Positions 741 through 40,853 of a stretch of 45,127 bases of DNA are shown piece after piece (within the stretch, counting starts at the first letter, position 1; each line of letters starts with the position of its first letter). Source of the DNA: Peptococcaceae bacterium (lineage in GTDB: Bacteria > Bacillota > DSM-12270 > Thermacetogeniales > Thermacetogeniaceae); assembly GCA_023249405.1 (NCBI GenBank), contig JAHFCR010000021.1, positions 1 to 45,127 of the forward strand, read 5' to 3'. Below the pieces are notes generated by a model, which was not told the DNA's origin, did no database searches, and saw only the letters and a program-made list of their open reading frames with translations. The position numbers and the translations under genes were made by a program.

Positions 741-741
741 G

Positions 742-770: not shown

Positions 771-771
771 T

Positions 772-8782: not shown

Positions 8783-8815
8783 AAACCGGACGTGCGGTTT
8801 TCCCGCATCCGGCTT
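8783..8815 (-). ncRNA. Group II intron domain V
   Basis: The minus-strand sequence begins AAGCCGGATGCGGG, with a GAAA-like loop and the complementary return CCGCACGTCCGGTTT. It carries the AGC catalytic triad and the small hairpin shape typical of domain V, which forms the active site of the ribozyme. Confidence 0.8.
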
Positions 8816-8875
8816 ACCTGCTAGCTTCACATCAAGGTTTATGAGACCTATCGGCCTGGTCGTGCTTTCGAGATT

Positions 8876-12720: not shown

Positions 12721-15018
12721 TTAAATTTTGCTTAGCACGGAAGCCGGGCATGTACGTTCCTTAAACAGTTGCTGCATGCCAGCATATATATCTTCCGCAG
12801 TTGCTGGCAATTGTCTGATCCTGACTCCCACCGCATCATAGATGGCATTGATAACAGCCGGCGTCATGGCAGCGCTCAAGGACTCGGCAATGCCCTTGGC
12901 GCCGAAAGGGCCGGTCGCTTCCAGTTCCTCCACCGGCGTCACGGTGATGTCGGGGCAGTCAAGCGCTGTCGGGATCAGGTAGGTGGCATAATTGTCGGTC
13001 AGCATGTGGCCATCCTTGATGATGCCTTTTTCCATGACCGCATATCCCATGCCCATGACCGTTCCTCCTTCGGCCTGGCCCTCCAGCCCCTGAATATTGA
13101 TGATTTTGCCGGCATCGGGGATGCAGACGGTCTCTACGACATCCACGGCACCCGTCCTGATGTCCACCTCCACCACGGCGATCTGAGTAGTCGATCCGAA
13201 CAGGAGGCTGGGGATGCCATACAACCCCTGCACACCCTTATCTGCAACGGGCATGTCGAAGAGACTTGAGGCCCGGATGGCCGATCCCTGCTCTTCGGCC
13301 AACTGGGCCAACTCCGGAATGGACATCTTCCTGGCGCCATCATGAACCTCATGGTCACCAAAACAGACTTCATCTGGCAGCACTCTCCAGATCTTGGCCG
13401 CAAACCGCTGCAGTTGCCGCCTGATCTCTGCCGCCGCCAGCAGGATGGCATTACCAGCTGCGTACACCGTCCGCGAAGCCGCGGCGACACCCGAATCCGG
13501 AGTGCAGGAAGAATCTCCCTGGATCACCTCCACCATGCTCAAGGGGCATTGCATGGCCTGAGCCGCGATCTGGGCAAAGACGATGTGGTTGCCCTGCCCC
13601 ACTTCCGGGCAACCGACCATTACCTGATAAGTTCCCCGGCTTGTTAGCACGATCTCAGCCGCACTGTAATCGGGGAGCCCCCGGCCCAACCCGACTCCCT
13701 TGATGCAGGTGGCAATACCGACACCCCGCTTGAGCCAGGGCTTGGCAAGATGCCGCCGGATCTGGGCACGCTCGCTCCAGAGTTTCGTGTCTCTGGCCTT
13801 CAACAGGGCCGGCACCGTACCCATGGCCATGGTCAGGGTATTGCCAAGAGGGCCGTGGTCGCCGGTCACCAGGCTGTTTTTCAGCCTGATCTCCAGCGGA
13901 TCCCACCCCTGATCGGCAGCGATGATCTCCATCTGGCTTTCCATGGCAAAATTAACCTGGGGAACTCCGAAGCCCCGCATGGCCGAACTGGGGCAATTGT
14001 TCGTATAGACACAATAGCCTGTCACATCCATATTGGGAACCCGATAGGCGCCGCAAGCGTGCCCGATGGCATTGGTCAGCACCGCTCCTCCCAGGCCGGC
14101 ATAGGCCCCCGTATCCGCCACTATCGTCACCTGGTTGGCCAGCAGTATACCGGCCCGGCTCACCGCAGTCTTCATGGTGATGGACATGGCATGCCGCTTC
14201 CAGCCAGTCGTGTTAGACTCCTCCCTGGTATTGACCAACTTGACCGGTCTCCCGATCTTAACCGCCATCACAGCCAGTTGTGCCTGCACAGTCAGATCGT
14301 CCTTACCGCCAAAAGCCCCTCCGACCGGATTGGAAACGATCCGGATCCGCTCTTCGGGTATGGCCAGCACCCGGCTCAGTTGGCGCTGATCCTGGCTCGG
14401 ATACTGGGAACCGCACCAGATCGTCATGTGCCCATCCCTGAAAACAGCCACGCCGCCCTCGGGCTCCAGGTAGACCGGAAACTGGATCGGGCTGTAATAG
14501 CTCTGCTCGACAATCAGGTCTGCCGATTTGAACGCCGCTTCCACGTCTCCGTTAGCGACATGAGCTTGAAGCAGCACGTTACCTCCGTCATGCACCAGAG
14601 GCGCTCCCTCTGCAAGCGCCCTGTATGGATCAAAGACGCCCGGCAATTCCCGGTAGGCGATCCGGATCTTCTCTGCGGCACGCGCCGCTATGTCCCTGGA
14701 TTCGGCCAGTACACCAGCTATCGGATCGCCCTCATATCTAACCACGGTATTGCAGAAGACCGGCTGGTCGTCAACGACAATACCGTAGCCGTTGCATCCG
14801 GGAACATCCCGGTATGTCACCACGGCCAGCACGCCTGGATATTTTTCTGCCTCCGCTGTATCTAGCTCTAATATCTCTGCATGGGGCACGCCGGCGCGCA
14901 CGATCACGCCCCAGACCATGTCAGAGAAACGCAGGTCGGTCATATACCGGATCTTTCCGGTAGTCTTGTCCTGGGCATCCTCTCTTCTTATCGGTTTGCC
15001 GATCCACTCGTAGCTCAT
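12721..15018 (-). CDS. Molybdenum hydroxylase large (molybdopterin-binding) subunit, xanthine dehydrogenase family
   Basis: Hydroxylates a purine or related N-heterocycle at the Mo centre in the cytoplasm. The 765-residue product has the a/b-hammerhead domain at 1-130, VGGAFGGKDD near 235, MRGFGVPQ near 350 and GPFGAKGIAE at 703-712, whose Glu712 is in the position of the catalytic glutamate. Start ATG with aaaagggg upstream. It needs 2Fe-2S and FAD partners. The small subunit nearest to it (8046) is broken and no FAD gene is adjacent, so it may borrow the intact subunits at 23913-25338. It follows the truncated amidohydrolase by about 50 bp, last in the run starting at pucR. Substrate among xanthine, purine, urate-type or methylated purines is unknown. 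Confidence 0.9.
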   Translation of the reverse strand: MSYEWIGKPIRREDAQDKTTGKIRYMTDLRFSDMVWGVIVRAGVPHAEILELDTAEAEKYPGVLAVVTYRDVPGCNGYGIVVDDQPVFCNTVVRYEGDPIAGVLAESRDIAARAAEKIRIAYRELPGVFDPYRALAEGAPLVHDGGNVLLQAHVANGDVEAAFKSADLIVEQSYYSPIQFPVYLEPEGGVAVFRDGHMTIWCGSQYPSQDQRQLSRVLAIPEERIRIVSNPVGGAFGGKDDLTVQAQLAVMAVKIGRPVKLVNTREESNTTGWKRHAMSITMKTAVSRAGILLANQVTIVADTGAYAGLGGAVLTNAIGHACGAYRVPNMDVTGYCVYTNNCPSSAMRGFGVPQVNFAMESQMEIIAADQGWDPLEIRLKNSLVTGDHGPLGNTLTMAMGTVPALLKARDTKLWSERAQIRRHLAKPWLKRGVGIATCIKGVGLGRGLPDYSAAEIVLTSRGTYQVMVGCPEVGQGNHIVFAQIAAQAMQCPLSMVEVIQGDSSCTPDSGVAAASRTVYAAGNAILLAAAEIRRQLQRFAAKIWRVLPDEVCFGDHEVHDGARKMSIPELAQLAEEQGSAIRASSLFDMPVADKGVQGLYGIPSLLFGSTTQIAVVEVDIRTGAVDVVETVCIPDAGKIINIQGLEGQAEGGTVMGMGYAVMEKGIIKDGHMLTDNYATYLIPTALDCPDITVTPVEELEATGPFGAKGIAESLSAAMTPAVINAIYDAVGVRIRQLPATAEDIYAGMQQLFKERTCPASVLSKI

Positions 15019-15686: not shown

Positions 15687-17009
15687 TCACAGCCGCGACC
15701 ACAGGCGGCCTGCCAACTCCCGGGACTTGGCCGTTATGGCCGCATCGTCGAGATTGAGCAAGCGTCGCCCTTTCATGAGTACCTTGCCTCCGACCATGGT
15801 AGTATCGACAAGGCCGCTACTAAACCCAAAAAGAACGTGGGCGAACCAGTTGGATGCTGTCATCGGCGTCGGCGCCTGATAATTCACCAGGATGATGTCT
15901 GCATAAGCCCCTGGCTCCAACCGGCCTAACAGGTGTGGATAAAAGCTCGACATAATCGAACTGTTGTTATCGAAGCCCATCGCCGGCAGTTCCGACCCCG
16001 CCCCGGGATCCCCCGCCATGAACTTGCGCAGCACATTGGCCACCTTCAACGATTCAAACATATCGCTTGTATAACCGTCAGTGCCGAGACCGACAAGCAC
16101 ACCGCTCGCAAACAGATCTCCCACCGGAGCGCAGCCCACGGCATTGCTCATATTGGATTCCGGGTTATGCACCACCATGGTGTCAGTCTCTTTCAGTATG
16201 GCGATCTCCCTCTGTGTTACCTGCACGCAGTGCGCGGCAACAGTTCGGGAGCCCAAAATACCCTGTTCCGCAAGGCGTTCCACCGCACGTTTGCCGCAAC
16301 GCCTGACCGCATCCTCGGCATCCTGAAATCCCTCAGCCACATGGATATGAAAACCGCTGTGCAACTCCTGTTCTGCTTCCCTGCATGCCGCCAGCGTGCT
16401 GTCAGAAAGAGTCATTGAGGCATGAAGTCCAAAGGTGGCTGAGAGTGACCCCTCACTGTCGCGGTATTGTTTGATGGCACGCACGTTCTCTTCGATGCCT
16501 GCCCGCATCACTGCCTTGCCATCCCGATCGGATACCTCGTAGGCCAGGCAGGCGCGCACACCAGTTTCCCGAACAGCCGCAGCGATCGCATCCAGACTGC
16601 CCGCCACGGCATGGGGACTGGCATGATGATCCAACAGAGCGGTCGTGCCGCACTTGATGCTGTCGATCAGAGACACCAGAGCACTGTAATAAATGTCTTC
16701 CGGAGTCATGGACTTGTCCAACCGCCACCATAAACGTTCTAGAATTTCTACCAGATTCTTGGGTGGCGCATCCTTGAGGGCCATTCCCCGGGCAAAAGTG
16801 CTGTAAAGGTGCGTGTGGGCGTTGATCATGCCCGGCATGATCACCATGCCCCCTGCGTCCCACCATTCCGCCTCAGGATACGATCGCCGCAGATCGGCAG
16901 TGGGGCCTACGGCAACCAGGCGATCGCCGGCAATCGCCACTGCTCCGTCTGCTTGATAGGGATCATCGAGTACCAGGGTTAATAGCCGGCCGTTTCCGAT
17001 CAGCAGCAC
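15687..17009 (-). CDS. ssnA: Amidohydrolase SsnA-like (purine-locus aminohydrolase)
   Basis: Member of the metal-dependent amidohydrolase superfamily found with selenium-dependent hydroxylases in the E. coli yge/ssnA cluster and needed for anaerobic purine use. From the GTG at 17009 the protein has 440 residues, like SsnA (about 442). Metal ligands: MINAHTHLYSTF (HxH at 65-67), GFHIHVAEG, VAAHCVQVT and LGTDGYTSD. The GTG is preferred over the upstream ATG at 17075 because ggagga lies just before it and family similarity begins there (VLLIGNGRLLTL). It starts 70 bp after the upstream deaminase gene, probably one transcript from pucR side. The exact substrate is not established; deamination or ring hydrolysis of a purine intermediate fits. 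Confidence 0.88.
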   Translation of the reverse strand: MLLIGNGRLLTLVLDDPYQADGAVAIAGDRLVAVGPTADLRRSYPEAEWWDAGGMVIMPGMINAHTHLYSTFARGMALKDAPPKNLVEILERLWWRLDKSMTPEDIYYSALVSLIDSIKCGTTALLDHHASPHAVAGSLDAIAAAVRETGVRACLAYEVSDRDGKAVMRAGIEENVRAIKQYRDSEGSLSATFGLHASMTLSDSTLAACREAEQELHSGFHIHVAEGFQDAEDAVRRCGKRAVERLAEQGILGSRTVAAHCVQVTQREIAILKETDTMVVHNPESNMSNAVGCAPVGDLFASGVLVGLGTDGYTSDMFESLKVANVLRKFMAGDPGAGSELPAMGFDNNSSIMSSFYPHLLGRLEPGAYADIILVNYQAPTPMTASNWFAHVLFGFSSGLVDTTMVGGKVLMKGRRLLNLDDAAITAKSRELAGRLWSRL

Positions 17010-17078
17010 GTGTCTCCTCCAGGAGCAAAACTCGTCACACTCCAGACGCCAGGCATCCGACGCTTGGATATGCATCTA

Positions 17079-18446
17079 TTAATTGCGCACTCGATCATAA
17101 ATCTTGGCTACGGCGCTGGACGCCTGTTTTGTTATTTTTTCCTCATCCACGCCGGTCAGGTGGCCATCCCGATAAACAATTTTGCCGTTGATCACCGTAA
17201 CATCTACTGGACGGTAATAACCGACTGTAGCCAGGAATGAGGCCGGATCCAGCAAAGCCCCCACTAGTTCCAACTTGTTGACATCAATCATAAACAGATC
17301 CGCTGCCTGGCCCACCGAGATCGCACCGAGATCATCGCGGCCCAATACCCTGGCCCCGCCCACTGTGGCCATTTTCAGCACGTCATATCCAGTAGGCGCC
17401 ATGTTGCTGGAGTTCAAGCGGTGCAACAAATAGGCCACGCGGAGATCGGCGAGCAGGTTGGATGCATCGTTGCTACCATTGCCATCCACAGCCAGTCCGA
17501 CTGGAACGTGCTTGTCCAGCATCTGTGGAATCTTGGCCACGCCTGAAGCCAATTTCATATTGGATACGGGACAATGAGCCACCCCGGCCTGCGCCTGGCT
17601 CAGGAGATCGATCTCCCCATCGTTAAAATGGACAGCGTGAGCGAACCAGACATCAGAACTCACCCAACCGCAGTCCTCGGCCCAGGCCAGCGGCCTCTTG
17701 CCGTAAGTTTCCAGACAATACCGCTCCTCATCCAGAGTTTCTGCCAGGTGCGTATGCAACCTGACCTGCTTCGCCCTGGCCAGCTTGGCCGATTCGATCA
17801 TCACTGTCGAATCCACCGAAAACGGAGAACAGGGCGCTAGCGCTACCTGCCTCATGGAATACTGTCCTGGGTCGTGAAATTTATCAACTAGGCGGATGCT
17901 ATCAGTCAGCACCTCGTCCACGCTCTCTACCAACTCATCAGGAGGCAGACCGCCATCCTTTTTCCCTCTAGTAAAGCAGCTTCGACCGGCATGGAAGCGG
18001 AGGCCCAGCGCTGCAGCCGCCTCAAATTGGCGATCAATAATCTGGCGGCCCCTGCCCCTCGGAAAAGCGAAGTGCTGATCGAATAGCGTGGTGCCGCCGT
18101 ACTTGACAAAGTCCGCCATCGCCACCAGGGAACTGTAATAGACAAAATTCGGGTCGACCTTCGTCCAGACGCCGTACAGAAACAGCAGCCAGTCAAAGAG
18201 TTCTGCCGATTGGATTTCCGGAATATTGCGAGTGAAGGCCTGCAAAAGATGGTGGTGAGTATTGACCAAGCCGGGATAGACGAACATATCACGGGCATCA
18301 ATGACCACTGCCCCTTCATCCGGCAGATTAGCCCCAATCGCCGCTATGGCTGGCCCCTCGGTTAAAATACTTTCTCCCGTCAAAACCCGGTCACAAGCAT
18401 CACAAGTCACGATTGCTTTGGCATTATTGATCAACAACCTGGACAT
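17079..18446 (-). CDS. 8-oxoguanine deaminase-like amidohydrolase
   Basis: Zinc-dependent aminohydrolase that would replace an exocyclic amino group on a purine (8-oxoguanine to urate) or a triazine-like ring by a carbonyl. From the ATG at 18446 it is 455 residues. Motifs: VNTHHHLLQAF (metal ligands at 64-66), TLFDQHFAFP, LHTHLAETLDEE, WFAHAVHFND and VDGNGSNDASNLLAD; the last resembles the DGSASND box of 8-oxoguanine deaminase and hydroxyatrazine hydrolase. A 50-residue N-terminal extension to 18596 is not family-like and is rejected; gggggt precedes the chosen ATG. It lies 201 bp after pucR on the same strand. In this setting it would feed urate or xanthine-type bases to the pathway. Confidence 0.82.
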   Translation of the reverse strand: MSRLLINNAKAIVTCDACDRVLTGESILTEGPAIAAIGANLPDEGAVVIDARDMFVYPGLVNTHHHLLQAFTRNIPEIQSAELFDWLLFLYGVWTKVDPNFVYYSSLVAMADFVKYGGTTLFDQHFAFPRGRGRQIIDRQFEAAAALGLRFHAGRSCFTRGKKDGGLPPDELVESVDEVLTDSIRLVDKFHDPGQYSMRQVALAPCSPFSVDSTVMIESAKLARAKQVRLHTHLAETLDEERYCLETYGKRPLAWAEDCGWVSSDVWFAHAVHFNDGEIDLLSQAQAGVAHCPVSNMKLASGVAKIPQMLDKHVPVGLAVDGNGSNDASNLLADLRVAYLLHRLNSSNMAPTGYDVLKMATVGGARVLGRDDLGAISVGQAADLFMIDVNKLELVGALLDPASFLATVGYYRPVDVTVINGKIVYRDGHLTGVDEEKITKQASSAVAKIYDRVRN

Positions 18447-18646
18447 CCCGGACCCCCGCACAAAACTGAATTTACGTTTATTCTTCTGATGCCGATCTCT
18501 TCTCAAGCATATTAACGTGTTTATTCTGAATTGCGGCAACGCAATACCTTTATAAACAACTACAAATCTGCGGGCAATGTGACAATTAATAAACATGGCT
18601 ATTTGTAAGATCGGACAACGGTTTAGCGGGGCCAGACCTGCACCGT

Positions 18647-20245
18647 TTATTGCTCTTCGACGCTGATCAACGGCAAGATCTTTAACGCTATTTCCATATT
18701 CAGGCGATCATAGGCATACTTCAGATTTACTCTGCACAGTTTTTCTATGTTAGCGATTCTATACCTAACAGTGTTGGGGTGCATATACATTATTGTTGCA
18801 GTATCCCTGTAATTGTATCCGCTCTCAATAAAACAGGTCAATGTATTGATTAAAACGGAATTGTTATTTCCTCTTTTATTTTGTAACGGCTTCAGGTAAT
18901 CATTATAGTATTTTACCATTTCCTGGGCCACATCCGGCAGTTTTAACAGACGGTAAAAGCCCAGTTTGCTGAAGGAATAAATCTTGGGGTTCAAATTCAA
19001 ACAGGAGCCGATTGCAATGGCGTTTTTAGCCTCTTCAAAGCTTTTCCCAACATCCATAAAGGTGGCGGCTCTGCCGATACCGATGATCATCTGGGGATCT
19101 TTAAGGGTATCTCTCAACTGCTCGTAGAGCTTGTCAATTGACTGCAGGTAATCCGCCTGATCATCAGAGACGTATATGGCGATGCTATTGCACTCCAAGG
19201 GCCCGAATACGGTATGCGCATTAAAGGTGCCCGTCACTATGCCATCAATGGCCTCCATGCAGTTTTCATCAAAAACGTTGACGACCTCGGAGTCAAAACG
19301 GACGAACACTACTATGCCGCGCTCAGGCAGCACAAAGCCCAGTTCACCTGCTTGATATTTAGCCTCTTTCCATGCATACTGCTCATTGAAGAGGCTTTCC
19401 ATGAAGCTCTTTCGATATTTTCGCTGCACATTGACGATCGAACTTATTCTCTTAATTTCCATGCTGCAGGCTGAAGCGGCGCAATCAAGCAATATATAAT
19501 CTTCTTTGACATATTCTCTGTTCCCTTTCAGCAAAATCACATGACCTTGGCTGCTGCTATTATTTGTGATATCGGTAGCTATCCATTCCATGCTGCCCTT
19601 ATCGCTCTCCCAGTAAAAGCTTTCGATTTTTAAGAAGCTATTCTCTCTTTGATATTTCTTACGCCAGCGATGCGCTTCTACAGGGAATTCCCCGGGTATT
19701 GTCTCGTCTGGATAGGAGTATCTTTGTTCTCCATAAAATATTATTACACCTAATCCCGTCCACGTATAAAGAGCCTTGGCCACTCCGGGCAAACCATTTT
19801 TAGAGATACTCACTGTGATATCCTTAATAACTTCATCTTCCCGTTTTATCTCTTTATTGACCGAAATTAAGTTGGAATTTACGAATTCGTAGATATCCGT
19901 GTAGGCATACTCATCCGTGATATTGATAATGGGGAAATTGCAACGATCTGCCGTTTCTTTCATAACCCTTGGCAGTTGTTTATTAAAAAACCGCAGCTTT
20001 ATGCCCAAGCCCGCGGCGCCGCACTTGGCCAAGTTTTCCAGCACTTCCCGCTGAGCTGCCGGATCGTTCAGGAGACTATAGGCTGTCGTAATCACCAGAT
20101 CCCCCCCCCTCATATATTTGGGAGCATCTGGGGAGTCTAGTACCGTCACACTGGAAACTACGTGAGAAAGGCCCTTTTCACCAGCCAGCACTCTGGAGTC
20201 GGCAAAAAAATCGCAGCCCAACAGGTCGGATAGCCTAACTTCCAT
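18647..20245 (-). CDS. pucR: PucR-family purine catabolism transcriptional regulator
   Basis: DNA-binding activator or repressor of purine-use genes. From the ATG at 20245 it has 532 residues: N-terminal PucR domain at about 1-120 (MRGGDLVITTAYSL), a central GGDEF-like regulatory region, and the C-terminal helix-turn-helix with NYRDTATIMYMHPNTVRYRI and LKYAYDRLNMEIALKI. The chosen start has aaggagggc upstream; the ATG at 20272 adds only nine residues. It is divergent from the corrinoid/MtmB-like pair, with a 440-bp region between them that holds promoter candidates for both directions, so it is the likely regulator of that pair and of the downstream deaminase genes. A broken second copy is at 11289. 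Confidence 0.93.
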   Translation of the reverse strand: MEVRLSDLLGCDFFADSRVLAGEKGLSHVVSSVTVLDSPDAPKYMRGGDLVITTAYSLLNDPAAQREVLENLAKCGAAGLGIKLRFFNKQLPRVMKETADRCNFPIINITDEYAYTDIYEFVNSNLISVNKEIKREDEVIKDITVSISKNGLPGVAKALYTWTGLGVIIFYGEQRYSYPDETIPGEFPVEAHRWRKKYQRENSFLKIESFYWESDKGSMEWIATDITNNSSSQGHVILLKGNREYVKEDYILLDCAASACSMEIKRISSIVNVQRKYRKSFMESLFNEQYAWKEAKYQAGELGFVLPERGIVVFVRFDSEVVNVFDENCMEAIDGIVTGTFNAHTVFGPLECNSIAIYVSDDQADYLQSIDKLYEQLRDTLKDPQMIIGIGRAATFMDVGKSFEEAKNAIAIGSCLNLNPKIYSFSKLGFYRLLKLPDVAQEMVKYYNDYLKPLQNKRGNNNSVLINTLTCFIESGYNYRDTATIMYMHPNTVRYRIANIEKLCRVNLKYAYDRLNMEIALKILPLISVEEQ

Positions 20246-20316
20246 AACACCCAGCCCTCCTTCAGCGCACATTCTCAGCTCCTCCGCTCAACATGCCCCA
20301 CATCAGCCACCCCTAA

Positions 20317-20682: not shown

Positions 20683-21396
20683 ATGGTAAATATCTTGAAG
20701 GAACAGATTTTACAAAATCTGCGTAACGCAATTGTAGAGTGCGACATCGATCAAGCCATCAAAGCATCTCAGGCAGTATTGTCTGCAGGTATTTCACCCT
20801 TGGAGGCAATTCAGCAAGGAGCATCCAAGGGATTGGACATCATCGGAGAAAGGTTCAGCGCAGGTGAGGCATACCTGCCGGAGCTGATCCTGGCCGGCGA
20901 TGCCATGAAGGCCGTATTTGACGTTCTGGCCAAGGCGCTGGCGAAAGAGGGCAAGAGCAAGAATGCCATTCTCGGCAAAGTCGTGATCGGAACAGTATCC
21001 GGCGATCTGCACGATATCGGCAAAAATATCGTCGGTGCCCTATTGGCCGTGAATGGCTTCGAGGTGTACGACATCGGCATAGACGTAGAGCCTAAGACAT
21101 TCGTCAAAAAGGCGACTGAGCTCGGCGCCAGCATCATCGCCTCGTCAACCCTGCTGACCACTTCAATGCCCTATCAGCAAGATGTGGTCCAGTACCTGGA
21201 AGACTCCGGTCAAAGGGACAAGTACTACTATATCGTTGGCGGCGGCCCGGTGACAGCCGAATGGGCCAGGCAGATCAAGGCGGATGGCCATGGTTATACC
21301 GCCACCGATGCCGTTGAGGTTTGCAAGAGGCTGGCCCAATCCGGTCAGACGCCAGGTACTTTCGAACCGATCATTCTTGAATATTACCAAGGTTAG
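20683..21396 (+). CDS. Corrinoid methyltransferase carrier protein (MtmC-like)
   Basis: Carries the methyl-cobamide between the MtmB-like methyltransferase encoded directly downstream and a methyl acceptor. The 237-residue protein is complete: cap domain with AYLPELILAGDAM near 63-75, B12 motif DLHDIG at 108-113 with the cobalt-ligand His, and the family C-terminal part. The ATG at 20683 touches its aaagg, so the in-frame TTG at 20695, eight bases after aaggatgg, may be the true start. The next gene begins 12 bp after its stop with taggagga between, so the two are cotranscribed. It differs clearly from the paralogues at 61 and 957, consistent with a separate partner. Confidence 0.93.
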   Translation: MVNILKEQILQNLRNAIVECDIDQAIKASQAVLSAGISPLEAIQQGASKGLDIIGERFSAGEAYLPELILAGDAMKAVFDVLAKALAKEGKSKNAILGKVVIGTVSGDLHDIGKNIVGALLAVNGFEVYDIGIDVEPKTFVKKATELGASIIASSTLLTTSMPYQQDVVQYLEDSGQRDKYYYIVGGGPVTAEWARQIKADGHGYTATDAVEVCKRLAQSGQTPGTFEPIILEYYQG

Positions 21397-21408
21397 GAGG
21401 AAATCGAG

Positions 21409-22821
21409 ATGTCACTGCGCACAGAAAAGATCCTGAGAAGCCTGGACCGCGCCTACACCGGCCCCATCTGCACCGTCAAGGATTGGGACACCAAAGTGAT
21501 CCCGCAGACCATCCGGGCCAAGCTAAAGAAATATGGTTTAGAGAAAACCTGCGACATGGAAAACCCGATCAATTGCGATGACGATCTGGCAGACCAGTTC
21601 TACAAAGCCGGATATGAACTGGCATTGGAGATCGGTATGCTCAACGTCGATACAGAAAGAATCATCAAGATCCAGGAGGATGAACTGCTGGATACCTTGC
21701 GCCATAAGCCCAGAGAAATCACGCTGGGCAGCGGCAACGACTCGGTAGTGTTGAAATACCGGAGACCCGAAGACCCGACCCCGCCGCTGCTGGCAGCATC
21801 GCTGGGCATTGTCGTTTCCGAGGAGTTGTACGTTCCGATCGTTTCCGGCATCGTCAAATACCGGGAACTGGTAGACGTGCTGCATGGGCCGTCCCTGTCC
21901 ACAGTCTACGGCAGGAAGATCCGCTCCGGTACCCCCTATGAGACCCTGATGGGCCGCTATGAGACTGAACTGCGCCGGGAGGCTCTCTGGCGTGCCGACC
22001 GGCCGGGCATGGCCCACACCGGCGTGGCTGGAGCCGTCACTCAGTATGGACACCTGGGTGGCGCCGCCTCCATTGGAGGCCCGGGCAATGTGACCATGGC
22101 TCTCTGTCCAGTAGAACTCAAAACCAACTTCTCGGTCTTCCACCGGATCATGATGGCCATTAACTATGGCATGCGCATCCGTGCCGGCGGATTCTCTTAC
22201 ATCGGTGGTTACGCCGGACCGCCGGAAGGAGCGGCTCTGGCCAATGTGGCCGTCGATCTGCTGATCGCCACCATCCTGGACAGCGACTATACCAGTTCCT
22301 ATGTCTACGACATCCAGTTGCTGGGCAACTGCGGGCGTAAGGCCCTCTGGGCAAACAGTGTGGCCATTCAGGCCATCAGCCGGAACACCTACCTGATCCG
22401 AAACAAGATCGTCAACGAAACCGGTGGCCCCTGCACAGATATGTTCATGTACGAGGCCGCGGTCGGTCTGATGAATCATTGCGTATCCGGCGCCTCCAAG
22501 ACCACGCAGCCGCGCTCAGCCGGCGGCAAATTCACCGATCACCTCACTCCCATGGAATGCTGGTGGTGTGGCGAGGTGTTCAAGTCCTGCGCCGGGATGA
22601 CTCGCAAGCAGGCGAATGAGATCGCCAAGCAGGTGCTTCCCAAGTATGAGGAGCAGTTGAAGAATCCGCCGAAGGGCAAGAGTGTCCTTGATTGTTTCGA
22701 CCTGCAAGAGATGAGGCCGTCTCCGGAGTATCAGCAGCTATATCTGGACATCAGAAAAGAACTGATGGATCTGGGCATGCCGCTCGACAAAGTATACAAC
22801 AATGTGGCCCTGGCCCGCTGA
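21409..22821 (+). CDS. Monomethylamine methyltransferase (MtmB)-family protein without pyrrolysine
   Basis: Would move a methyl group from a methylated amine or amide to the corrinoid protein encoded just upstream. The 470-residue frame shows MtmB landmarks throughout: LDRAYTG (12-18), WDTKVIP, RPGM (198-201), GGYAG (266-270), GGPCTDM (339-345), GEVF..CAGM (388-397) and the end segment with CFDLQEM and SPEYQQLY. Archaeal MtmB uses pyrrolysine at residue 202; here the frame is open with no amber codon, so the chemistry or substrate must differ. A CWWC pair at 384-387 plus Cys394 sits where methanogen MtmB (recalled from memory) has no such cysteines, suggesting a metal site or disulphide. Good ribosome site (aggagg). 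A terminator follows. Donor inferred to be an N-methyl group from purine or amide catabolism, not shown. Confidence 0.88.
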   Translation: MSLRTEKILRSLDRAYTGPICTVKDWDTKVIPQTIRAKLKKYGLEKTCDMENPINCDDDLADQFYKAGYELALEIGMLNVDTERIIKIQEDELLDTLRHKPREITLGSGNDSVVLKYRRPEDPTPPLLAASLGIVVSEELYVPIVSGIVKYRELVDVLHGPSLSTVYGRKIRSGTPYETLMGRYETELRREALWRADRPGMAHTGVAGAVTQYGHLGGAASIGGPGNVTMALCPVELKTNFSVFHRIMMAINYGMRIRAGGFSYIGGYAGPPEGAALANVAVDLLIATILDSDYTSSYVYDIQLLGNCGRKALWANSVAIQAISRNTYLIRNKIVNETGGPCTDMFMYEAAVGLMNHCVSGASKTTQPRSAGGKFTDHLTPMECWWCGEVFKSCAGMTRKQANEIAKQVLPKYEEQLKNPPKGKSVLDCFDLQEMRPSPEYQQLYLDIRKELMDLGMPLDKVYNNVALAR

Positions 22822-22882
22822 AGCCTTGCCCCGACAGTTGGCAACGATCAGCTCTGGCAGATTATAGAATCATCTTAGGCAC

Positions 22883-22919
22883 TGAAAAAGAGAGCCCTGC
22901 GTTCGGGCTCTCTTTTTCA
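22883..22919. terminator. Bidirectional intrinsic terminator between convergent operons
   Basis: A perfect 15-bp stem (22883-22897 with 22905-22919; core agagccc/gggctct) and a 7-nt loop, A-rich on one side and T-rich on the other. It ends both the plus-strand corrinoid/MtmB-like operon and the long minus-strand operon. Confidence 0.92.
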
Positions 22920-22946
22920 TGCATCGTACATATGCAAATACTCCCC

Positions 22947-23786
22947 CTAAACCAGAGACCCCATCCCAGGGATAGTCCCCAGGTCATTCAGTCGCCGGCG
23001 TACAGGCCCTTCCGGTGCGCTTTCAGATATCCCATTATCTTTTCCGAGCAGGGCCGCACCTGCGTAAATATCGCCCACCAGTTTTTTATCCAGAGGATCC
23101 AAAATAAAGGAGTCCATACCCATCGTCATCGTTTCGATGCAGAAGATCCGGTTGAGCACCCGTCTGTTTGGCAAGCCGAAGGATATGTTGCTCAGCCCGC
23201 AGATGGTATGCACGTCCGGATATTCATGCCCGATATATGCCAGGGTCTGTAAGACCTCCTGGCCAGCATCAGTGCCCGTGCTGATCGGCTTGATCAGCGG
23301 GTCAACATAAATATCGCCTGCAGGCACTCCATCCTTAATCAATCTGGGAATCAACCTGTCGGTTATTTCCTTCCGCCTCTCGTAAGTATCCGGCATGCCA
23401 GCATCGTCCATCAACAGGGCGACTACTTTGGCCTTGTATTCCAAGACCAGGGGAATAACCTGGCTGAATCGCTCTTCCTGGGCGGTGATGGAGTTGATCA
23501 TCGGCTGGCCGTTCCTGTGCAGCTTCAGGCCAGCTTGCAGCGCCCGGCAATTGGGGCTGTCGATGCACAGCGGAGTATCTGTCACCCTTTCCTGAACAAC
23601 TTTTACCAGCCATTCCATCATCTGCTCTTCCTTGCTGATCATGGTGCCACAGTTGACATCTATATAATGCGCCCCTGCCTCCGCCTCGTTCCTGGCGATC
23701 TCCTGAATGGCAGCGGCATCTCCTGTATCCACAGCGGTTTTAACGGCCTTTCTGCTTGTGTTGATCAATTCACCGACAATCAGCAC
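22947..23786 (-). CDS. Methyltetrahydrofolate:corrinoid methyltransferase (MtgA/AcsE-like)
   Basis: Pterin-binding TIM-barrel enzyme that moves methyl between a corrinoid protein and tetrahydrofolate, linking the carriers to one-carbon metabolism. The 279-residue product fits the family: VGELINTSRKAV at the N-terminus, AGAHYIDVNCGT (about 38-49), DSPNCRALQAGL, PMINSITAQEER and TICGLSNISFGLPNR (pterin-site loops). Start is GTG at 23786 with ggaggt 12 bases upstream. It is last in the long minus-strand run, 127 bp after the FAD subunit gene and directly convergent with the MtmB-like pair. With them it makes a complete methyl-transfer set: methyltransferase, carrier, methyl-THF enzyme. Confidence 0.9.
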   Translation of the reverse strand: MLIVGELINTSRKAVKTAVDTGDAAAIQEIARNEAEAGAHYIDVNCGTMISKEEQMMEWLVKVVQERVTDTPLCIDSPNCRALQAGLKLHRNGQPMINSITAQEERFSQVIPLVLEYKAKVVALLMDDAGMPDTYERRKEITDRLIPRLIKDGVPAGDIYVDPLIKPISTGTDAGQEVLQTLAYIGHEYPDVHTICGLSNISFGLPNRRVLNRIFCIETMTMGMDSFILDPLDKKLVGDIYAGAALLGKDNGISESAPEGPVRRRLNDLGTIPGMGSLV

Positions 23787-23912: not shown

Positions 23913-24767
23913 CTAGCTGGTCAAATCATACAGCACCTCATAGAGCAGGGAACTGCACATGTTTCTCCGATATTCGGCAGAAGCCCTGAGATCTGATATG
24001 GGCGCACAGAACTCCCCGGCCCGCTCGGAGATTTCTTTGATTGCCTGCAGATCCAGCGGCCCCTGGCTAAGCATCCGTTCCAGCTCCGGCACTCTCCTGA
24101 TCACCGGCACCACCGCACCGAAGGCAATACCGGAGGCACTGCTTGTCCTGATGGCAGGATCGAAAGCCATCCTGACCGCCACGCTGGCGACAGAGATGGC
24201 CAGCGCCTTGCGTTGCCCCAGCTTCCTGTAAAGGCAGCGTTCATTGTCTTGCATTTTTTGCACTGCGATGCCGGTGATCAATTCGCCGGATCTTAATTGC
24301 GTTTTTCCAGGGCTGGTAATGAACGCATCCAGCGACAGCTCTCTCTTGCCTGCCAGCGATTGGATGATCACCCTGGCATCCAGCACAGTCAGAGGAGGCA
24401 GGGAGTCTGCCGCCGGAGAAGCGTTAGCGATATTACCACCCAGGGTGCCCGTGTTCCTGATCTGGGGAGAACCAACCGTAGCGCACCCCTGCACCAACAC
24501 CGGTAAATACCGGTTAGCCAGGGTCGACTCCACGATCTGCCCATGCGTGACCAGGGAACCGATAACGATCTGTTCTCTCTCATCCTCGATCTCGGTCAGT
24601 TCCGACAGTGCTGACAGATCAACGACCAGCTGCGGCTTCAGCAATCTCTTCTTGATCCGCACCAGCAGATCTGTACCACCGGCCAATAGTGTGGCGTTGC
24701 CATCGGCGATAGCGTCCAGCGCATCAGCAAGACTACGCGGCCTGATCACATCGAAAGCTTGCAGCAT
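23913..24767 (-). CDS. Molybdenum hydroxylase FAD-binding subunit
   Basis: Takes electrons from the 2Fe-2S clusters to FAD and on to NAD or another acceptor in a xanthine dehydrogenase-type complex. From the ATG at 24767 it has 284 residues. The FAD motifs are LLAGGTDLLVRIKK (about 33-46) and ATVGSPQIRNTGTLGGNI, followed by the CO-dehydrogenase-flavoprotein C-terminal domain. The frame extends upstream to 24878 but that part is not family-like, and ggggg lies before the chosen start. The 2Fe-2S subunit gene ends 76 bp upstream. Together they can serve XdhD (which lacks an FAD domain) or the orphan large subunit at 12721. Confidence 0.9.
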   Translation of the reverse strand: MLQAFDVIRPRSLADALDAIADGNATLLAGGTDLLVRIKKRLLKPQLVVDLSALSELTEIEDEREQIVIGSLVTHGQIVESTLANRYLPVLVQGCATVGSPQIRNTGTLGGNIANASPAADSLPPLTVLDARVIIQSLAGKRELSLDAFITSPGKTQLRSGELITGIAVQKMQDNERCLYRKLGQRKALAISVASVAVRMAFDPAIRTSSASGIAFGAVVPVIRRVPELERMLSQGPLDLQAIKEISERAGEFCAPISDLRASAEYRRNMCSSLLYEVLYDLTS

Positions 24768-24843
24768 CACAACGCCCCCCATGCAGAAGAGGAAAGGTCT
24801 CTTTTTTTCCTTGCCAGGACATAGACCCACCTGTATCCTGCCA

Positions 24844-25338
24844 TCATTTCTCACCGCCGGCGCTGCCGTCCCGAGCATTCATCGCAGCCAGCTGGACAGC
24901 CTTGATGATCTTCGTATATCCCGTGCAGCGACAAAGATTTCCCGAAATAGCCCGCTTGATCTCGTCTACCGAAGGATTGCTGTTTTTAAGCAAAAGGCTC
25001 TTGGCGGACATGATCATCCCCGGGGTACAGTAGCCGCACTGTACAGCTCCTGCCTCGATGAAGCTCGATTGAAGCAGGTCCAAAGAGCCATCCTTGCCCA
25101 GCCCTTCAATGGTAGTCACTGTCCGGCCCTGTACCTGGGAGATCAGAATCAAGCAAGAGTCGACAGCCTTACCATCGAGTATGACTGTGCAGGCCCCGCA
25201 CTCCCCCTGCCCACAGCCCTCCTTGGTTCCGGTCAAAGCAAACTCATCCCTGATCACTTCGAGCAGCGTCATGTTCGGCTTAACGGTGACGGTCCTGGGC
25301 TCTCCATTCAAAGTAAAATCCACCATAACGCTATTCAT
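24844..25338 (-). CDS. Molybdenum hydroxylase 2Fe-2S subunit
   Basis: Small iron-sulphur subunit of a xanthine dehydrogenase-family enzyme. From the ATG at 25338 it has 164 residues, the normal length. Cluster ligands: CGQGECGAC (Cys42, 47, 50) and Cys62 for the plant-type cluster, VQCGYCTPGM and LCRCTGY for the proximal one. The upstream extension to 25392 is not conserved, and agggggag precedes the chosen start. It is followed by the FAD subunit. XdhD already has its own fused 2Fe-2S domain, so this free subunit may belong to the large subunit at 12721. Confidence 0.92.
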   Translation of the reverse strand: MNSVMVDFTLNGEPRTVTVKPNMTLLEVIRDEFALTGTKEGCGQGECGACTVILDGKAVDSCLILISQVQGRTVTTIEGLGKDGSLDLLQSSFIEAGAVQCGYCTPGMIMSAKSLLLKNSNPSVDEIKRAISGNLCRCTGYTKIIKAVQLAAMNARDGSAGGEK

Positions 25339-25515: not shown

Positions 25516-26904
25516 CTATAACAAAGCTGGCTTCTTCCTCCTTAAGAAGGCTCCACTACCCACAGACCCGGTGAATATGCCGTTCTGAAAAACGATCCGC
25601 CCCCGAGCAATTGTTACCACGGGCCAGCCCTTGACACACATCCCCTCATAGGGAGTGTAATCCACGTTTTCATGCAAAATCCCTTTGGTGATGGTGGTTT
25701 CCCGTTCCGGATCAAAAACCACCAGATCAGCGTCGCTGCCCGAGGAAATTGTTCCTTTTTGTGGATACAGACCAAATATGCGCGCCGGATTGGTAGCCGT
25801 CAATTCCACAAAACGTTGGATGCTCAGTCTTTTTTGGTAGACACCAAAATAATAAAGCAGGATCAACCGGGCTTCGATTCCGGGAACTCCATTGGGTATC
25901 TCGCTAAAAAAATTCTTGCCAATATCCTTCTGCCCGTCGAAGTTAAAGGGACAGTGATCCGTAGATACCACCTGGAGGCAATCGTTTGCCAGGCCATCCC
26001 AGAGAAGGGGCTGATTTTTTGCCGGGCGCAGTGGTGGCGACAGGACATACTTGGCTCCCTGAAAATCAGGCTCGTCGTATCTGTCGCAGGACAAGAGCAA
26101 GTACTGTGGACAAGTCTCGCCCATCACGGGAACGTTATTTGCCCTCGCCCTGGAGATCTCGTCCAGGGACTCCTGGCAGGTAACGTGAACTATATAGATA
26201 GGAGCATTCACCAGCCGCGCCAGCCTGATCGCCCTCCCCGTCGCCTCCTCTTCCACCAGCGGCGGCCTGCTCAGGGGATGATACCGAGGCCCGGTTTTTC
26301 CGGCCGCCCTCAACTCCTTGACCAGGTAGTCGATCATGTAATAGTTCTCCGCATGGACGCAAACCAGTCCCCCGGCATCCCTAGTCTTGACTAGAGCCGC
26401 CAGCAGTTCACCGTCAGTAACCCGTAAATTGTCATAGGTCAGATAAAATTTGAAGCTCGGATATCCATCGGAAATCAGGGAAGGAATGGCAGCAATGGTG
26501 CTGTCATCGATCGTCGTCGGGGAGATATGAAAACTGTAATCGATGGCCACCCTGCCACGGGCCTGCAGATGCCTGTCCTCAATTGCCTCCGCTAAGGATT
26601 GGCCCCTGTTCTGGGTTACAAAATCAATGATGGTGGTCGTGCCGCCGCAAGCCGCAGCGATCGTTCCGGTCGTAAAGTCGTCGCTGGATACAGCGCTCCC
26701 GACAGAGGCTGCCAGGTGAGTGTGCACATCTATCCCGCCCGGGAAGACATACATCCCGGTAGCATCGATCAACTGCTCGCCGCGCTCGTTGATATGATCC
26801 GCAATGGCCGCGATCTTGCCATGCCTGATGCCGATATCCCTAACGAGTACTCCGGATTCGTTGACGACCATTCCACCCTTAACCAGAAGATCAAAATCGT
26901 TCAT
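25516..26904 (-). CDS. Dihydropyrimidinase / D-hydantoinase
   Basis: Zinc amidohydrolase that opens dihydropyrimidine, hydantoin or related cyclic amide rings to N-carbamoyl acids. From the ATG at 26904 it is 462 residues. Metal motif GGIDVHTHLAAS (HxH at 61-63), the carbamylated lysine in FKFYLTYDN (Lys152), HAENYYMI, IVHVTCQES and VVSTDHCPFNF are all intact. gggag precedes the start; stop is TAG. In the E. coli purine locus this slot is occupied by hyuA (dihydropyrimidinase/phenylhydantoinase), whose name is confusingly shared with the ATP-dependent hydantoinase A at 3500. It lies between the PreA-like gene and the 2Fe-2S subunit. The carbamoyl product would suit YgeY/YgeW downstream in the pathway. 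Confidence 0.9.
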   Translation of the reverse strand: MNDFDLLVKGGMVVNESGVLVRDIGIRHGKIAAIADHINERGEQLIDATGMYVFPGGIDVHTHLAASVGSAVSSDDFTTGTIAAACGGTTTIIDFVTQNRGQSLAEAIEDRHLQARGRVAIDYSFHISPTTIDDSTIAAIPSLISDGYPSFKFYLTYDNLRVTDGELLAALVKTRDAGGLVCVHAENYYMIDYLVKELRAAGKTGPRYHPLSRPPLVEEEATGRAIRLARLVNAPIYIVHVTCQESLDEISRARANNVPVMGETCPQYLLLSCDRYDEPDFQGAKYVLSPPLRPAKNQPLLWDGLANDCLQVVSTDHCPFNFDGQKDIGKNFFSEIPNGVPGIEARLILLYYFGVYQKRLSIQRFVELTATNPARIFGLYPQKGTISSGSDADLVVFDPERETTITKGILHENVDYTPYEGMCVKGWPVVTIARGRIVFQNGIFTGSVGSGAFLRRKKPALL

Positions 26905-26958
26905 CAGACAGCGTCTCCCATTGTAGATCATCCACGCAGGCGAATTGTAAATCGCCGG

Positions 26959-28044
26959 TCAAGACGGCAACCTCAGCGCCCGGCGCTGGCAACGGGTCAC
27001 GCACAATCCGCAGCCAAAACACTTTCCGGCGTCGATCTCCAGTTTGTGTGTTCTGGAAACCGCTCCATAGGCGCAACTGGTTTCACATGCACCGCAGAGA
27101 TTGCACTGATCCTGCTCCACCACCGGCACCTTGGCATAGGTTCTGAAGGTCCGTTCCGACGATCTTCTGATGGCCAGACCTCTAACATCCTCTAACGACG
27201 CATACCCGTGGTTATCTAAAAATTCGTTCAGTTCCCTGACGATCTTGCCGTAGATTTTCGGCCCCTGCAGGATCGCCGCAGTACAGACCTGAACGGCAGA
27301 AGCGCCAGCCATCATCATCTCTGCCGCATCCCGGCCGTTGGCAACGCCGCCCACTCCGAAGATGGGAACACGCACTACCCTGGCAGCATCATATACACAG
27401 CGCAAGGCAAGAGGTTTGATGGCAGGTCCCGACAGCCAGCCATAGCCCTCCTTGCTGCCCATGTACGGAAGGCCAGTCTCGGCATCGATACCCAGGCAAG
27501 GGCCAAAGGAGTTGATCATGACCAGTCCGTCAGCTCCAGCCTGTTCCAGGGCCAGGGCAATCTCCTGGATGTTGTTATGCGGGGTCAGTTTGACGAAGAC
27601 AGGCACATCCACAGCATCCTTGGCGGCCTTCAGGCCATCCAGGATAGGAGAGATATCGTTGCCCACATAATGGGTGGATAATTCCAGAGCATCAGCAAAG
27701 GGACGGACCAGTCTGGCCAATATGGAGATCTGCGCTGCCGTGTAGCCAAGTCCGATAATCAGCGGCAGACCGGTTTCCCTGGCCTGTTCATACTCACAAT
27801 CCAGCCACTGTTCCTTGGGCAATTCCGACCACAACTCGGTGTTCAGGAGCCCTCCCCTAACCGCAGCCATGCACGGCCTCGGTACATCTGCAGGTTTATC
27901 CGACACTGTTTTAGTGATAATGGCTCCCGCTCCACCAGCAGCAGCCGCCTTGGCGGCTTCGCCATTCCGCACTGGAGGCCCGGCCGCCGGCATAATGGGA
28001 TTAGCAAAAGCAATCCCACAAATGTTGACATCTAATTTGGCCAC
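26959..28044 (-). CDS. PreA-like dihydropyrimidine/dihydroorotate dehydrogenase with 2[4Fe-4S] tail
   Basis: FMN TIM-barrel oxidoreductase of the dihydroorotate/dihydropyrimidine dehydrogenase family, which reduces or oxidises the C5-C6 bond of pyrimidine-like rings. The 361-residue protein has GIAFANPIMPAAGP near the start, FVKLTPHNN and FGVGGVANGRDAAEM (FMN-phosphate loop). It ends in a ferredoxin domain with CNLCGACETSC and CFGCGLCVTRC, two 4Fe-4S clusters. Start is GTG at 28044 with aaagaaagggga upstream. No PreT flavin partner is in the window, so its electron donor is unknown. In E. coli the purine locus uses the unrelated Fe-S protein YgfK, absent here; this gene might do a comparable reduction. 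Confidence 0.87.
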   Translation of the reverse strand: MAKLDVNICGIAFANPIMPAAGPPVRNGEAAKAAAAGGAGAIITKTVSDKPADVPRPCMAAVRGGLLNTELWSELPKEQWLDCEYEQARETGLPLIIGLGYTAAQISILARLVRPFADALELSTHYVGNDISPILDGLKAAKDAVDVPVFVKLTPHNNIQEIALALEQAGADGLVMINSFGPCLGIDAETGLPYMGSKEGYGWLSGPAIKPLALRCVYDAARVVRVPIFGVGGVANGRDAAEMMMAGASAVQVCTAAILQGPKIYGKIVRELNEFLDNHGYASLEDVRGLAIRRSSERTFRTYAKVPVVEQDQCNLCGACETSCAYGAVSRTHKLEIDAGKCFGCGLCVTRCQRRALRLPS

Positions 28045-28061: not shown

Positions 28062-30845
28062 TTAAGCAGAAATAACACGATCCCTCGCCTTGATTGCCTT
28101 GAGCACTTTTTCAGGGGTAGCTGGCAATTCAGTCAAACGAACACCGACAGCATCATAGATAGCGTTGATGATGGCCGGGGCAGTAGGATTGACCGGCAGC
28201 TCGCCCAGGCCTTTGGCGCCAAAGGGACCGCCAGGCTGGATGTCTTCGATGATATAGACTTCAATATCTGGAACCACATTGCTGTATGGAAGATTGAGCT
28301 TCTTCAGGGTATCCGTCACAACCTGTCCCTGGCTCATCTGAAACTTTTCCATTAAGCCATAACCCAGGCCCATGACCACGCACCCTTCGATCTGGTTCTG
28401 AACATTTTGCGGATTTATAGCTTTGCCCACTTCATGGGCGGCGATCACCTTCAGAACCCTGACCGCGCCCGTCTCCTCATCAACTTCCACAATAGCCGCC
28501 TGGGTGCCAAATGAGTAGGCGAAATGCACCCGGTAGCGTTCCAGGTCCACTCCGGGTTCATGATCGGCACACTTAGGCAGCGGGTAGCACACCGGAGGAT
28601 CGTAGTGATATGAGACCTTGGTATTCAGCCCCTTGCTTGACAGCCAATAGTGTAATTTGGCATAGCTCATATGGCGTCTCCCCAAAACAGGCCCATCTTT
28701 ATTAAAAGCAATATCTGCGATATCGGCCGACCACTCATCGCTGAGAGCTTGTCTAATCTGTTCGCTCAGAGCAGTTGCGCAGTAACTGACAGCATTGCCG
28801 GAGACGTAGGTCTGCCGCGAGGCAGTGGTCATGCCGGCGTCGAGGCAGAGATCGGTGTCGCTGGACAAAACATCCACGCAACTGAGCGGAAATCCTCCTG
28901 CACCGGCGGCAATTTGAGCCATAGTGGTGTTGGAGCCCTGACCCATATCAGTAGCTCCCGTATATACCACAATTCGCCCGTCCAGATTCAATTCTACAGA
29001 GGCGCCGGCTCCATCAGGCTTGCCATCTCCAATTCCCACGTTTTTAAAAGCGCTGGCGATACCCACACCGATTTTTTTACAACCATGAGATTTAGGGATC
29101 TCTGCTTTGGCCAGGGCATCCCTGATCGCCACCAGAGTCTCGTCGTAGGCGATAGACGGTTCCAAGACCTGGCCAGTGGACGTGGTTTCACCCACAGCAA
29201 GGGCATTGCGCCTTCTGAACTCGATCGGATCCATGCCCAGCTTCCTCGCCAGGCGATCTATCTGGACTTCTCCGGCAAAGCAAACCTGCGTACTGCCAAA
29301 ACCGCGGAAGGCGCCCCCGATGGCGTTATTGGTATAAACACCCACTGCGTCGGAAAAGACGTGGGGAACCACGTAGGGGCCCGCAGCACAGACCGCCCCC
29401 CGGAATACAACCGGCATCCCCCAGGAAGCATAAGGGCCAGTGTCCGCCAAGATCCTGGCCTCGATCGCCACCAGTTTCCCATCGGCAGTCGCCCCATGTT
29501 TCATGTAAATCTTCTGAGCATGGCGCTTGGTGGATTTCATGATCGATTCTCGTCGCGTCAGTGTCATTTTTACCGGCCGGCCAGTCTTCAAGGCCCCGAG
29601 GGCAGCATGAATCTGCACTACCGGCTCTTCCTTGCCGCCAAAAGCCCCGCCAGTGGCCGTAAAGATGACGCGCACCCGATCCTCTGGAACGCCTAGAGCC
29701 CTGGCTATCTGCAGTCTGAAAGCATGGGAACTCTGGCTGCCTGTATAAACCGTAATCTTGCCGTCACCGTCGATCTCTGCCAGGGTGGATTCCGGCTCCA
29801 GATAGGCATGCTCCACCATCTGAGTCTGGTAGGTGTCTTCAATGATGATGTCAGCCTGATCAAAGCCCTTGCTGACATCTCCTTTCCTGACAGTGACGTG
29901 GTTGACGACATTGCCCTGCGGCTGCAATTGCGGGGCATCTTCACGCAGGGCATCCTCAGGGGTAAAAATCGGCTTTAGCGATTCTAGATCAACATTTACC
30001 AGTTTTGCAGCTTGAGCGGCAATAGCCTCAGTTTCCGCCAGAACCACTGCTACCGGATCACCCACATAGCGGATTATCTCGTTGGCCAATACAGGTTGGT
30101 GGGGTACGATACCGCCGAAAGCGTTCAGTCCGGGCACATCCCCGGCTGTCAACACTGCCACCACACCCGGCAAGCTCTTGGCCCGATCGATATCCAAGCC
30201 GACAATCCTGGCGTATGGTAAATTGCCATGCACCAGTTTCCCAAAAAGCATATTTTCCCGTTGCAGATCATCGGCAAATATGGGGGCGCCAGTCACCTTG
30301 GCACGGGCATCCACCCTGGGCACGGAAACACCGATCACCGCGGCGGTTTCCACTTCCGGACCCGGAATTCGTGGCTGGCTCGATGGATCCCTCAGCCAAC
30401 TTGCCGCCAAGCGAATTGCCCGAAAGATGCTGGTATAACCAGTGCAACGGCATAAATTATGCTTAAGCGCATTTCGGATTTCCTCGTCTGTAGGGTTCGG
30501 GTTGGCATCCAGCAGCCCCTTGGCAGCCATGATCATACCAGGTGTGCAAAAACCGCACTGAATTGCCCCTTCTTTGATAAAAGCTGCTTGCAGAGGATGC
30601 AGGCGCCCGCCTTGACCAAGACCATCAATGGTTTCGACTCTCACCCCGTCCAAATGCGCTATTTTAGTGACGCAAGCCCGGCGGGCCCTGCTATTGACGA
30701 GCACCGTGCAGCTGCCGCAATGCCCGTCACCACACCCGTTTTTAGTTCCCATCAACCCTAGTTTCTGGCGCAGAAAAGTGAGCAGACTCCCGTCCGGGTG
30801 CTCTACTATATATTCTCGATCATTGACATAGAGCCTAATGCTCAT
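28062..30845 (-). CDS. xdhD: Selenium-linked xanthine dehydrogenase XdhD (fused 2Fe-2S and molybdopterin domains)
   Basis: Hydroxylase for purines in anaerobic catabolism. About 928 residues, like E. coli XdhD (956): a 2Fe-2S domain (Cys39, 44, 47, 59 and Cys98, 101, 133, 135) fused to a molybdopterin-binding region from about residue 172, with GGAFGGKEE near 405 and [10 protein letters not shown] at 874-883 (catalytic Glu883). It lacks an FAD domain, so it must use a separate flavin subunit such as that at 23913. The ATGATG at the start allows M1 at 30848 or M2 at 30845; M2 is better spaced from gaggag. The maturation genes mocA, yqeC, yqeB and XdhC-like at 39.5-42.8 kb mark it as probably a labile-selenium enzyme. 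Confidence 0.92.
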
Positions 30846-30921
30846 CATTCTCTCCTCGTTAAAGCAACGATTGGGTTATATTCAACGTTTTGCTCCACCC
30901 TGTACCTGATTGTCCAGCAAC

Positions 30922-32057: not shown

Positions 32058-32076
32058 CTTAACAATCCCCCTATAT

Positions 32077-33297: not shown

Positions 33298-33364
33298 GTT
33301 CATCCCCTGTCTCATAGCTTCGCCTTTTGTTTTGCCGGTATATCTGCACCAACCGAAATATTCG

Positions 33365-34720: not shown

Positions 34721-34742
34721 CGTTGCTCAAGCCTCCGTTTTT

Positions 34743-40826: not shown

Positions 40827-40853
40827 GGTTTCTACCTCGGGGCTGATCGTCCG

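Follow-up and report, generated by a model that had tools for sequence, protein, structure and literature searches.

We describe a candidate anaerobic N-demethylation system on a 45,127-nt stretch of DNA from a Peptococcaceae bacterium (assembly GCA_023249405.1, contig JAHFCR010000021.1). This stretch, hereafter the window, is an entire contig (G000:C3, with its end at 45127) from a genome of 3.57 Mb. It encodes a methyltransferase of the MtmB family that lacks pyrrolysine (Pyl), an adjoining corrinoid protein (MtxC-type) and a methyl-tetrahydrofolate (THF):corrinoid methyltransferase (MeTr). We propose, with a probability of roughly two in three, that these would make up a three-component N-demethylase which acts on N-methylated purines without oxygen, the most likely donor being methylguanine, methylxanthine or methylurate with the methyl on a ring nitrogen. 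The data show directly what the genes are, that their genomic linkage is conserved, that the residues at the Pyl site are lost, and that genes for the RACo corrinoid activase and for CO dehydrogenase/acetyl-CoA synthase are present.

The window protein matches the MtmB-family profile PF05369 almost end to end (residues 9–457, profile positions 4–450 of 450; E 3.7e-76, 257 bits against a cut-off of 25) and scores 185 bits against the structures of Methanosarcina barkeri MtmB1. An earlier note, made from the sequence of this DNA alone, had described the gene as free of a pyrrolysine codon, and TAG is indeed absent in frame across 21409–22821. Alignment with M. barkeri MtmB places T204 at the Pyl202 position, M230 at E229, G260 at E259, I334 at Q333 and N336 at Y335, while all nine of nine Pyl-MtmBs examined keep the original residues at these five sites. 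The window protein thus has neither the TAG at codon 202 nor the E229, E259 and Q333 that mark pyrrolysine monomethylamine methyltransferases. In the crystal structures, the conserved E229, E259 and Q333 surround the pyrrolysine. Because the Pyl-site residues are all replaced, it is very unlikely that this protein uses pyrrolysine-adduct chemistry. Direct attack of Co(I) on a ring N-methyl group without pyrrolysine is plausible by analogy, because an N-methyl azole or imide offers a reasonable leaving group; MtqB and MtgB likewise demethylate their quaternary amines without pyrrolysine. An AlphaFold2 model built from five sequences (pLDDT, the predicted local distance difference test, 53.5) was too poor for reading the binding pocket.

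All parts of a three-component corrinoid system were found: the methyltransferase (MT-I), its cognate corrinoid protein, the MeTr (MT-II) and a reductive activase in the genome. The corrinoid gene lies 12 bp upstream of mtmB, as the earlier note had it, ending at 21396 where mtmB starts at 21409. Its best NCBIfam match is MtgC at 226 bits, below the cut-off of 310. Its TAG stop (21394–21396) overlaps TAGGAGG, the ribosome-binding site of mtmB. The stop is also in frame with mtmB, both here and in four other loci (L065, L066, L067, L069), so that read-through by pyrrolysine-tRNA would yield a fusion; the ribosome-binding site is the likelier explanation of the TAG in the window. The MeTr carries the motifs IDSPN, INSI, DPL and SNISFGLP of the AcsE-type active site, and its structural relatives include the AcsE-type MeTr 2yci and 4o0q (MtgA). 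The same note had placed MeTr convergent with the corrinoid-mtmB pair; this orientation stands (22947–23786, minus strand). A terminator-like hairpin with a 14-bp perfect inverted repeat and A/T tails separates mtmB from MeTr. Because it lies between the convergent genes, MeTr is probably part of the minus-strand purine operon and transcribed apart from mtmBC.

Homologues were taken from Candidatus Formimonas warabiya and other members of the phylum; order- and family-level genome searches around the clade genomes added few members. In a maximum-likelihood tree the window protein falls in a non-Pyl clade of 26 rows (SH-aLRT, an approximate likelihood-ratio branch support, of 100) that is set on a long stem apart from the Pyl-MtmBs and spans at least six families. 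Loci were surveyed with identical reference proteins and score limit for clade, Pyl and arbitrary windows. At least one core purine gene occurs within 10 kb in 20 of 24 clade loci, and at least two in 15 of 24. The corresponding counts were 0/9 for Pyl-MtmB loci (p = 1.9e-5 vs the clade) and 4/34 for arbitrary windows of the same genomes (p = 5e-8 vs the clade). At the genome level, 12 of the 13 clade genomes have the urate-pathway marker SsnA above its cut-off, vs 73 of the 385 others in a 398-genome sample of the phylum (p = 5e-8); the 13th clade genome, G168, has two SsnA pieces on different contigs that look like a split gene. The clade is strongly linked to purine genes. The earlier note had staked its proposal beforehand on homologues lying near purine genes elsewhere, and the survey bore this out: co-occurrence is retained across six or more families and on several of the clade's deep branches. 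A chance arrangement is rejected on the strength of the Pyl-locus and arbitrary-window controls together with the genome-level SsnA control.

Two deep branches, ~44–47% identical to one another, are both purine-linked, one containing the window and loci L003, L053, L056, L060 and L062, the other L054, L055, L064, L073, L106 and L108. The Formimonas orthologue is 85% identical to the window protein and lies in a 21-kb run (L003/L109) of permease, corrinoid protein, second MtmB, MtrH, adenine deaminase, PucR, corrinoid protein, MtmB, MeTr, chemoreceptor, xanthine/uracil permease and deaminase, with more genes for xanthine dehydrogenase (XDH), SsnA and deaminases alongside. Genomes G010 and G011 each encode two clade paralogues ~10 kb apart, one of them in a run of SsnA, corrinoid protein, mtmB, XDH and MeTr (L054, L055); in L054 the order on a single strand is amidohydrolase, corrinoid protein, mtmB, three XDH genes and MeTr. 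MtmB genes of branch B, found in Formimonas (L106), G065 (L064) and G168 (L073), sit among XDH, DHO_dh, carbamoyltransferase and YgeY genes. Two or more paralogues lie in purine loci in each of G010, G011, G065 and Formimonas.

The commonest enzyme partner of the window-type MtmB is the deaminase-like protein at 17079–18596, which recurs at 60–77% identity in L003/L109, L053, L056, L060 and L062, and at 42–50% with a related group C (L059, L070, L080). Its nearest solved relatives, 3hpa and 7ww2, belong to the 8-oxoguanine deaminase/triazine hydrolase class. This favours an amino-purine, such as methylguanine, as the probable entry compound.

The second Formimonas MtmB, in the run of permease, corrinoid protein, MtmB, MtrH and adenine deaminase (L003:2285–7043), is a distant non-Pyl protein with 28% identity to its neighbour, and is possibly part of a methyladenine system. 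The 2.6 Mb genome G226 has 14 MtmB-family matches, of which 11 (26–65% identity) cover most of the protein, which suggests wide substrate diversification. In the 1.6 Mb genome G078 (L076, L077), broken clade and other MtmB genes occur with fragments of PucR and RACo, a picture of system decay.

We infer as follows which donor is used, how the steps are ordered and which way the methyl flows. A purine permease would take up the base, and a guanine/8-oxoguanine-type deaminase and XDH would turn an amino-purine into xanthine or urate. The non-Pyl MtmB would bind the N-methylpurine and expose its methyl to the Co(I) that the corrinoid protein carries, the ring nitrogen acting as leaving group. MeTr would then transfer the methyl group of Co(III)-CH3 to THF, feeding the Wood-Ljungdahl pathway, and the demethylated purine could enter the reductive urate route to yield carbamoyl-phosphate and ATP. 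The host is equipped to use methyl-THF, as its genome encodes RACo (L087:13357–15336) and, from CO dehydrogenase/acetyl-CoA synthase, a protein with a CdhC domain.

Several observations weigh against this scheme. The p-values of 5e-8 assume independence, whereas the 13 genomes belong to six families and the tree requires 9 parsimony state changes. Four of the 24 clade loci (L061, L066, L074, L078) have no core purine gene, some of their contigs being short; some neighbours match at just 27–31% identity; and regulators of the PucR family are not confined to purine genes. Demethylation of tetramethylammonium and choline is the sole demonstrated function of a non-Pyl MtmB (PMC13044021). The main awkward fact is that a non-Pyl MtmB-family protein, Ga0180325_111810, is the top induced protein of Ca. 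Formimonas on dichloromethane (PMC9768040), which purine use does not predict.

The earlier note had left the donor among N-methyl groups of purines, urate, hydantoins or amino acids derived from them. The purine side of that list gains from the neighbouring permeases, guanine/8-oxoguanine-deaminase-like proteins, adenine deaminase and XDHs, which argue for an intact N-methylpurine and leave creatinine, sarcosine and N-methylhydantoin less favoured. It is unlikely, though the best placed of the alternatives, that the donor is instead a methylated breakdown product (N-methylhydantoin, an N-methylureido compound, creatinine-derived sarcosine or N-methylurea) formed when SsnA and HyuA open a methylpurine or creatinine. 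HyuA, YgeY and the carbamoyltransferase do lie in the window locus, and at least one of them accompanies branch B in L064, L073 and L106. The window-type MtmB, however, mostly keeps company with purine permease, PucR and the guanine/8-oxoguanine-type deaminase, a hydantoinase often not being nearby (L003, L053, L060, L062), and the urate-pathway paper (PMC12507026) does not discuss N-methyl substrates.

Slightly less probable still is an MtqB-like methyltransferase for choline, tetramethylammonium or a similar quaternary amine that lies by chance in purine loci of methyltransferase-rich anaerobes. Besides the demonstrated function given above, such genomes can indeed be rich in corrinoid methyltransferases, Formimonas having 82 mttB (PMC6778437) and 8 MtmB-family genes. 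Yet purine linkage exceeds the background by a wide margin, and the Pyl-MtmB loci, likewise amid methyltransferase genes, scored 0/9. The annotated neighbours included no recognisable transporter for betaine or choline; many neighbours lack annotation.

We consider it improbable that the donor is methylamine freed when a base with an exocyclic N-methyl group, such as N6-methyladenine or N2-methylguanine, is deaminated. Amidohydrolases of the neighbouring type free amines from such bases, and the Formimonas adenine deaminase adjoins the second MtmB; but methylamine activation is thought to require pyrrolysine, the Pyl-site residues are lost, and the genome that holds the window encodes a separate true pyrrolysine MtmB.

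A haloalkane donor such as dichloromethane or chloromethane is similarly improbable. The induced protein may be the window orthologue or the paralogue 7 kb away: gene-number interpolation between 16S genes places it at ~1.95 Mb, and the nearest MtmB pair lies at 1.867 and 1.874 Mb (L003, Formimonas G410), so that its assignment to either gene is uncertain, the neighbouring paralogue being as close as the orthologue. Moreover, most clade loci are purine-linked, and as a system for dichloromethane the mec cassette has better support (PMC9768040). Nitrogen-dependent control by PucR might, speculatively, account for the induction.

The N-demethylation genes are embedded in a purine catabolic locus (Table 1). 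Profile matches confirm the arrangement that the earlier note had described, with pucR on one side of the methyltransferase genes and FAD-subunit, hydantoinase and XDH genes on the other. The reductive (anaerobic) urate pathway was reported in 2025 as an XdhD-YgfK/UacX-SsnA-HyuA-YgeW-YgeY-YgeX cluster (PMC12507026), and comparison of profile matches with that report gave a candidate gene for each step inside the window; SsnA, HyuA, YgeY and carbamate kinase pass curated cut-offs, and Mo/Se-cofactor maturation genes accompany them. The published cluster differs from the window in that PMC12507026 mentions neither a methyltransferase nor demethylation.

Table 1 Coordinates of the methyltransferase genes and their neighbours in the window
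Feature	Position	Strand	Basis
NCS1-type nucleobase permease	6330..7730	-	PF02133
XDH-type molybdenum hydroxylase subunit	12721..15018	-	PF02738, PF20256
SsnA, ring-opening step of reductive urate pathway	15687..17075	-	TIGR03314, 625 bits, over cut-off
8-Oxoguanine/guanine-deaminase-like amidohydrolase	17079..18596	-	NF006055, 519 bits, below cut-off 532; PDB relatives 3hpa, 7ww2
PucR-type purine regulator, divergent from corrinoid-mtmB pair	18647..20272	-	PF07905 (E 3e-29), HTH_30
Cognate corrinoid (B12-binding) protein, MtxC-type	20683..21396	+	PF02310, PF02607, motif DLHDIG
Non-pyrrolysine MtmB-family methyltransferase (MT-I), 470 residues, candidate purine N-demethylase	21409..22821	+	PF05369; no in-frame TAG
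Perfect bidirectional terminator-like hairpin between convergent mtmB and MeTr	22884..22918	.	GAAAAAGAGAGCCC-loop-GGGCTCTCTTTTTC
MeTr (MT-II), proposed methyl transfer to THF	22947..23786	-	NF005719, 325 bits, cut-off 259
XDH FAD subunit (YgfM-like)	23913..24878	-	PF00941
Dihydropyrimidinase/hydantoinase (HyuA)	25516..26931	-	TIGR02033, 573 bits, over cut-off
DHO_dh/4Fe-4S protein, UacX type (replaces YgfK)	26959..28044	-	PF01180 + Fer4; PMC12507026
XDH-type hydroxylase with fused 2Fe-2S domain (XdhD-like)	28062..30848	-	PF02738, PF20256, PF01799; Se-dependent XDH model, 764 bits, below cut-off 830
Carbamoyltransferase (YgeW-like)	31074..32129	-	PF00185, PF02729
YgeY hydrolase	32077..33315	-	TIGR03526, 692 bits, over cut-off
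Two PALP-family pyridoxal phosphate enzymes, one possibly for YgeX step	33365..35990	-	PF00291
Maturation genes MocA-like, YqeC, YqeB, XdhC	39472..42802	-	TIGR03172 and TIGR03309 over cut-off, XdhC models; MocA model below cut-off
Carbamate kinase	43092..44126	-	TIGR00746, 404 bits, over cut-off

Positions 61–5458, adjoining the nucleobase permease, encode two corrinoid proteins, a non-Pyl MttB-family methyltransferase (1766–3226) and a Hydantoinase_A-type protein, perhaps a second methyl-donor system; the purine superloci of G065 (L062, L063) and Formimonas (L003, L109) also contain MttB homologues (45–78% identity). The region 8090–12521 appears to be a second copy of the purine locus that has decayed, holding remnants of a second PucR (11292–11453, 76% identity) and of the Fe-S region of an XDH (8091–8476) together with a split reverse transcriptase of a group II intron (8876–10154) and an IS1634 transposase fragment (11502–12521). 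A truncated UbiD-family decarboxylase at 36729–37382 is apparently a pseudogene.

Among known systems, the sole characterised non-Pyl MtmB is MtqB of Methanococcoides methylutens (2026), which acts with MtqC on tetramethylammonium and choline (PMC13044021). It shares with the window pair a pyrrolysine-free MtmB-family protein and its own corrinoid protein, but has a proven quaternary-amine substrate, belongs to a methanogen, delivers the methyl to coenzyme M and has no reported purine linkage; our tree does not include MtqB itself. MtmB/MtmC (PDB 1L2Q, 1NTH) is of the same family (~30% identity for the Formimonas orthologue) and follows the same two-protein logic, whereas the window protein has no pyrrolysine and has replaced E229, E259, Q333 and Y335. 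The glycine betaine system MtgB-MtgC-MtgA of Desulfitobacterium resembles the window system in its three-component methyl transfer to THF, in the likeness of the window MeTr to 4o0q and in MtgC being the nearest model of the corrinoid protein; it differs in that MtgB is of the MttB family and the window MT-I of the MtmB family. The known bacterial route is that of NdmABC in Pseudomonas, Rieske oxygenases that N-demethylate caffeine with formaldehyde as product. The proposed window route would likewise remove purine N-methyls, possibly with one paralogue per position, but NdmABC are oxygenases of unrelated fold, whereas the window route would be oxygen-free and save the methyl. The window protein is a non-Pyl MtmB within a known three-component scheme, with N-methylated purines as a newly proposed substrate class.

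In the open-access literature we found no relevant paper on corrinoid and caffeine, none joining mtmB with xanthine dehydrogenase, or monomethylamine methyltransferase with purine demethylation, and no enzyme for oxygen-free methyl loss from caffeine, theobromine, methylxanthine drugs or RNA 7-methylguanine. A corrinoid route would extend the donors of corrinoid methyltransferases to aromatic ring N-methyl groups, assign a function to one branch, the purine-linked one, of the non-Pyl MtmBs, which are largely uncharacterised, and connect purine fermentation with acetogenesis. More tentatively, and with somewhat less than even odds, the whole non-Pyl clade may consist of position-specific corrinoid purine N-demethylases, an anaerobic analogue of NdmA, NdmB and NdmC, with branches for N1, N3 or N7 methyls. 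If so, acetogens could live on the methyls of caffeine, theobromine or RNA-derived methylguanine while fermenting the ring via the reductive urate route.

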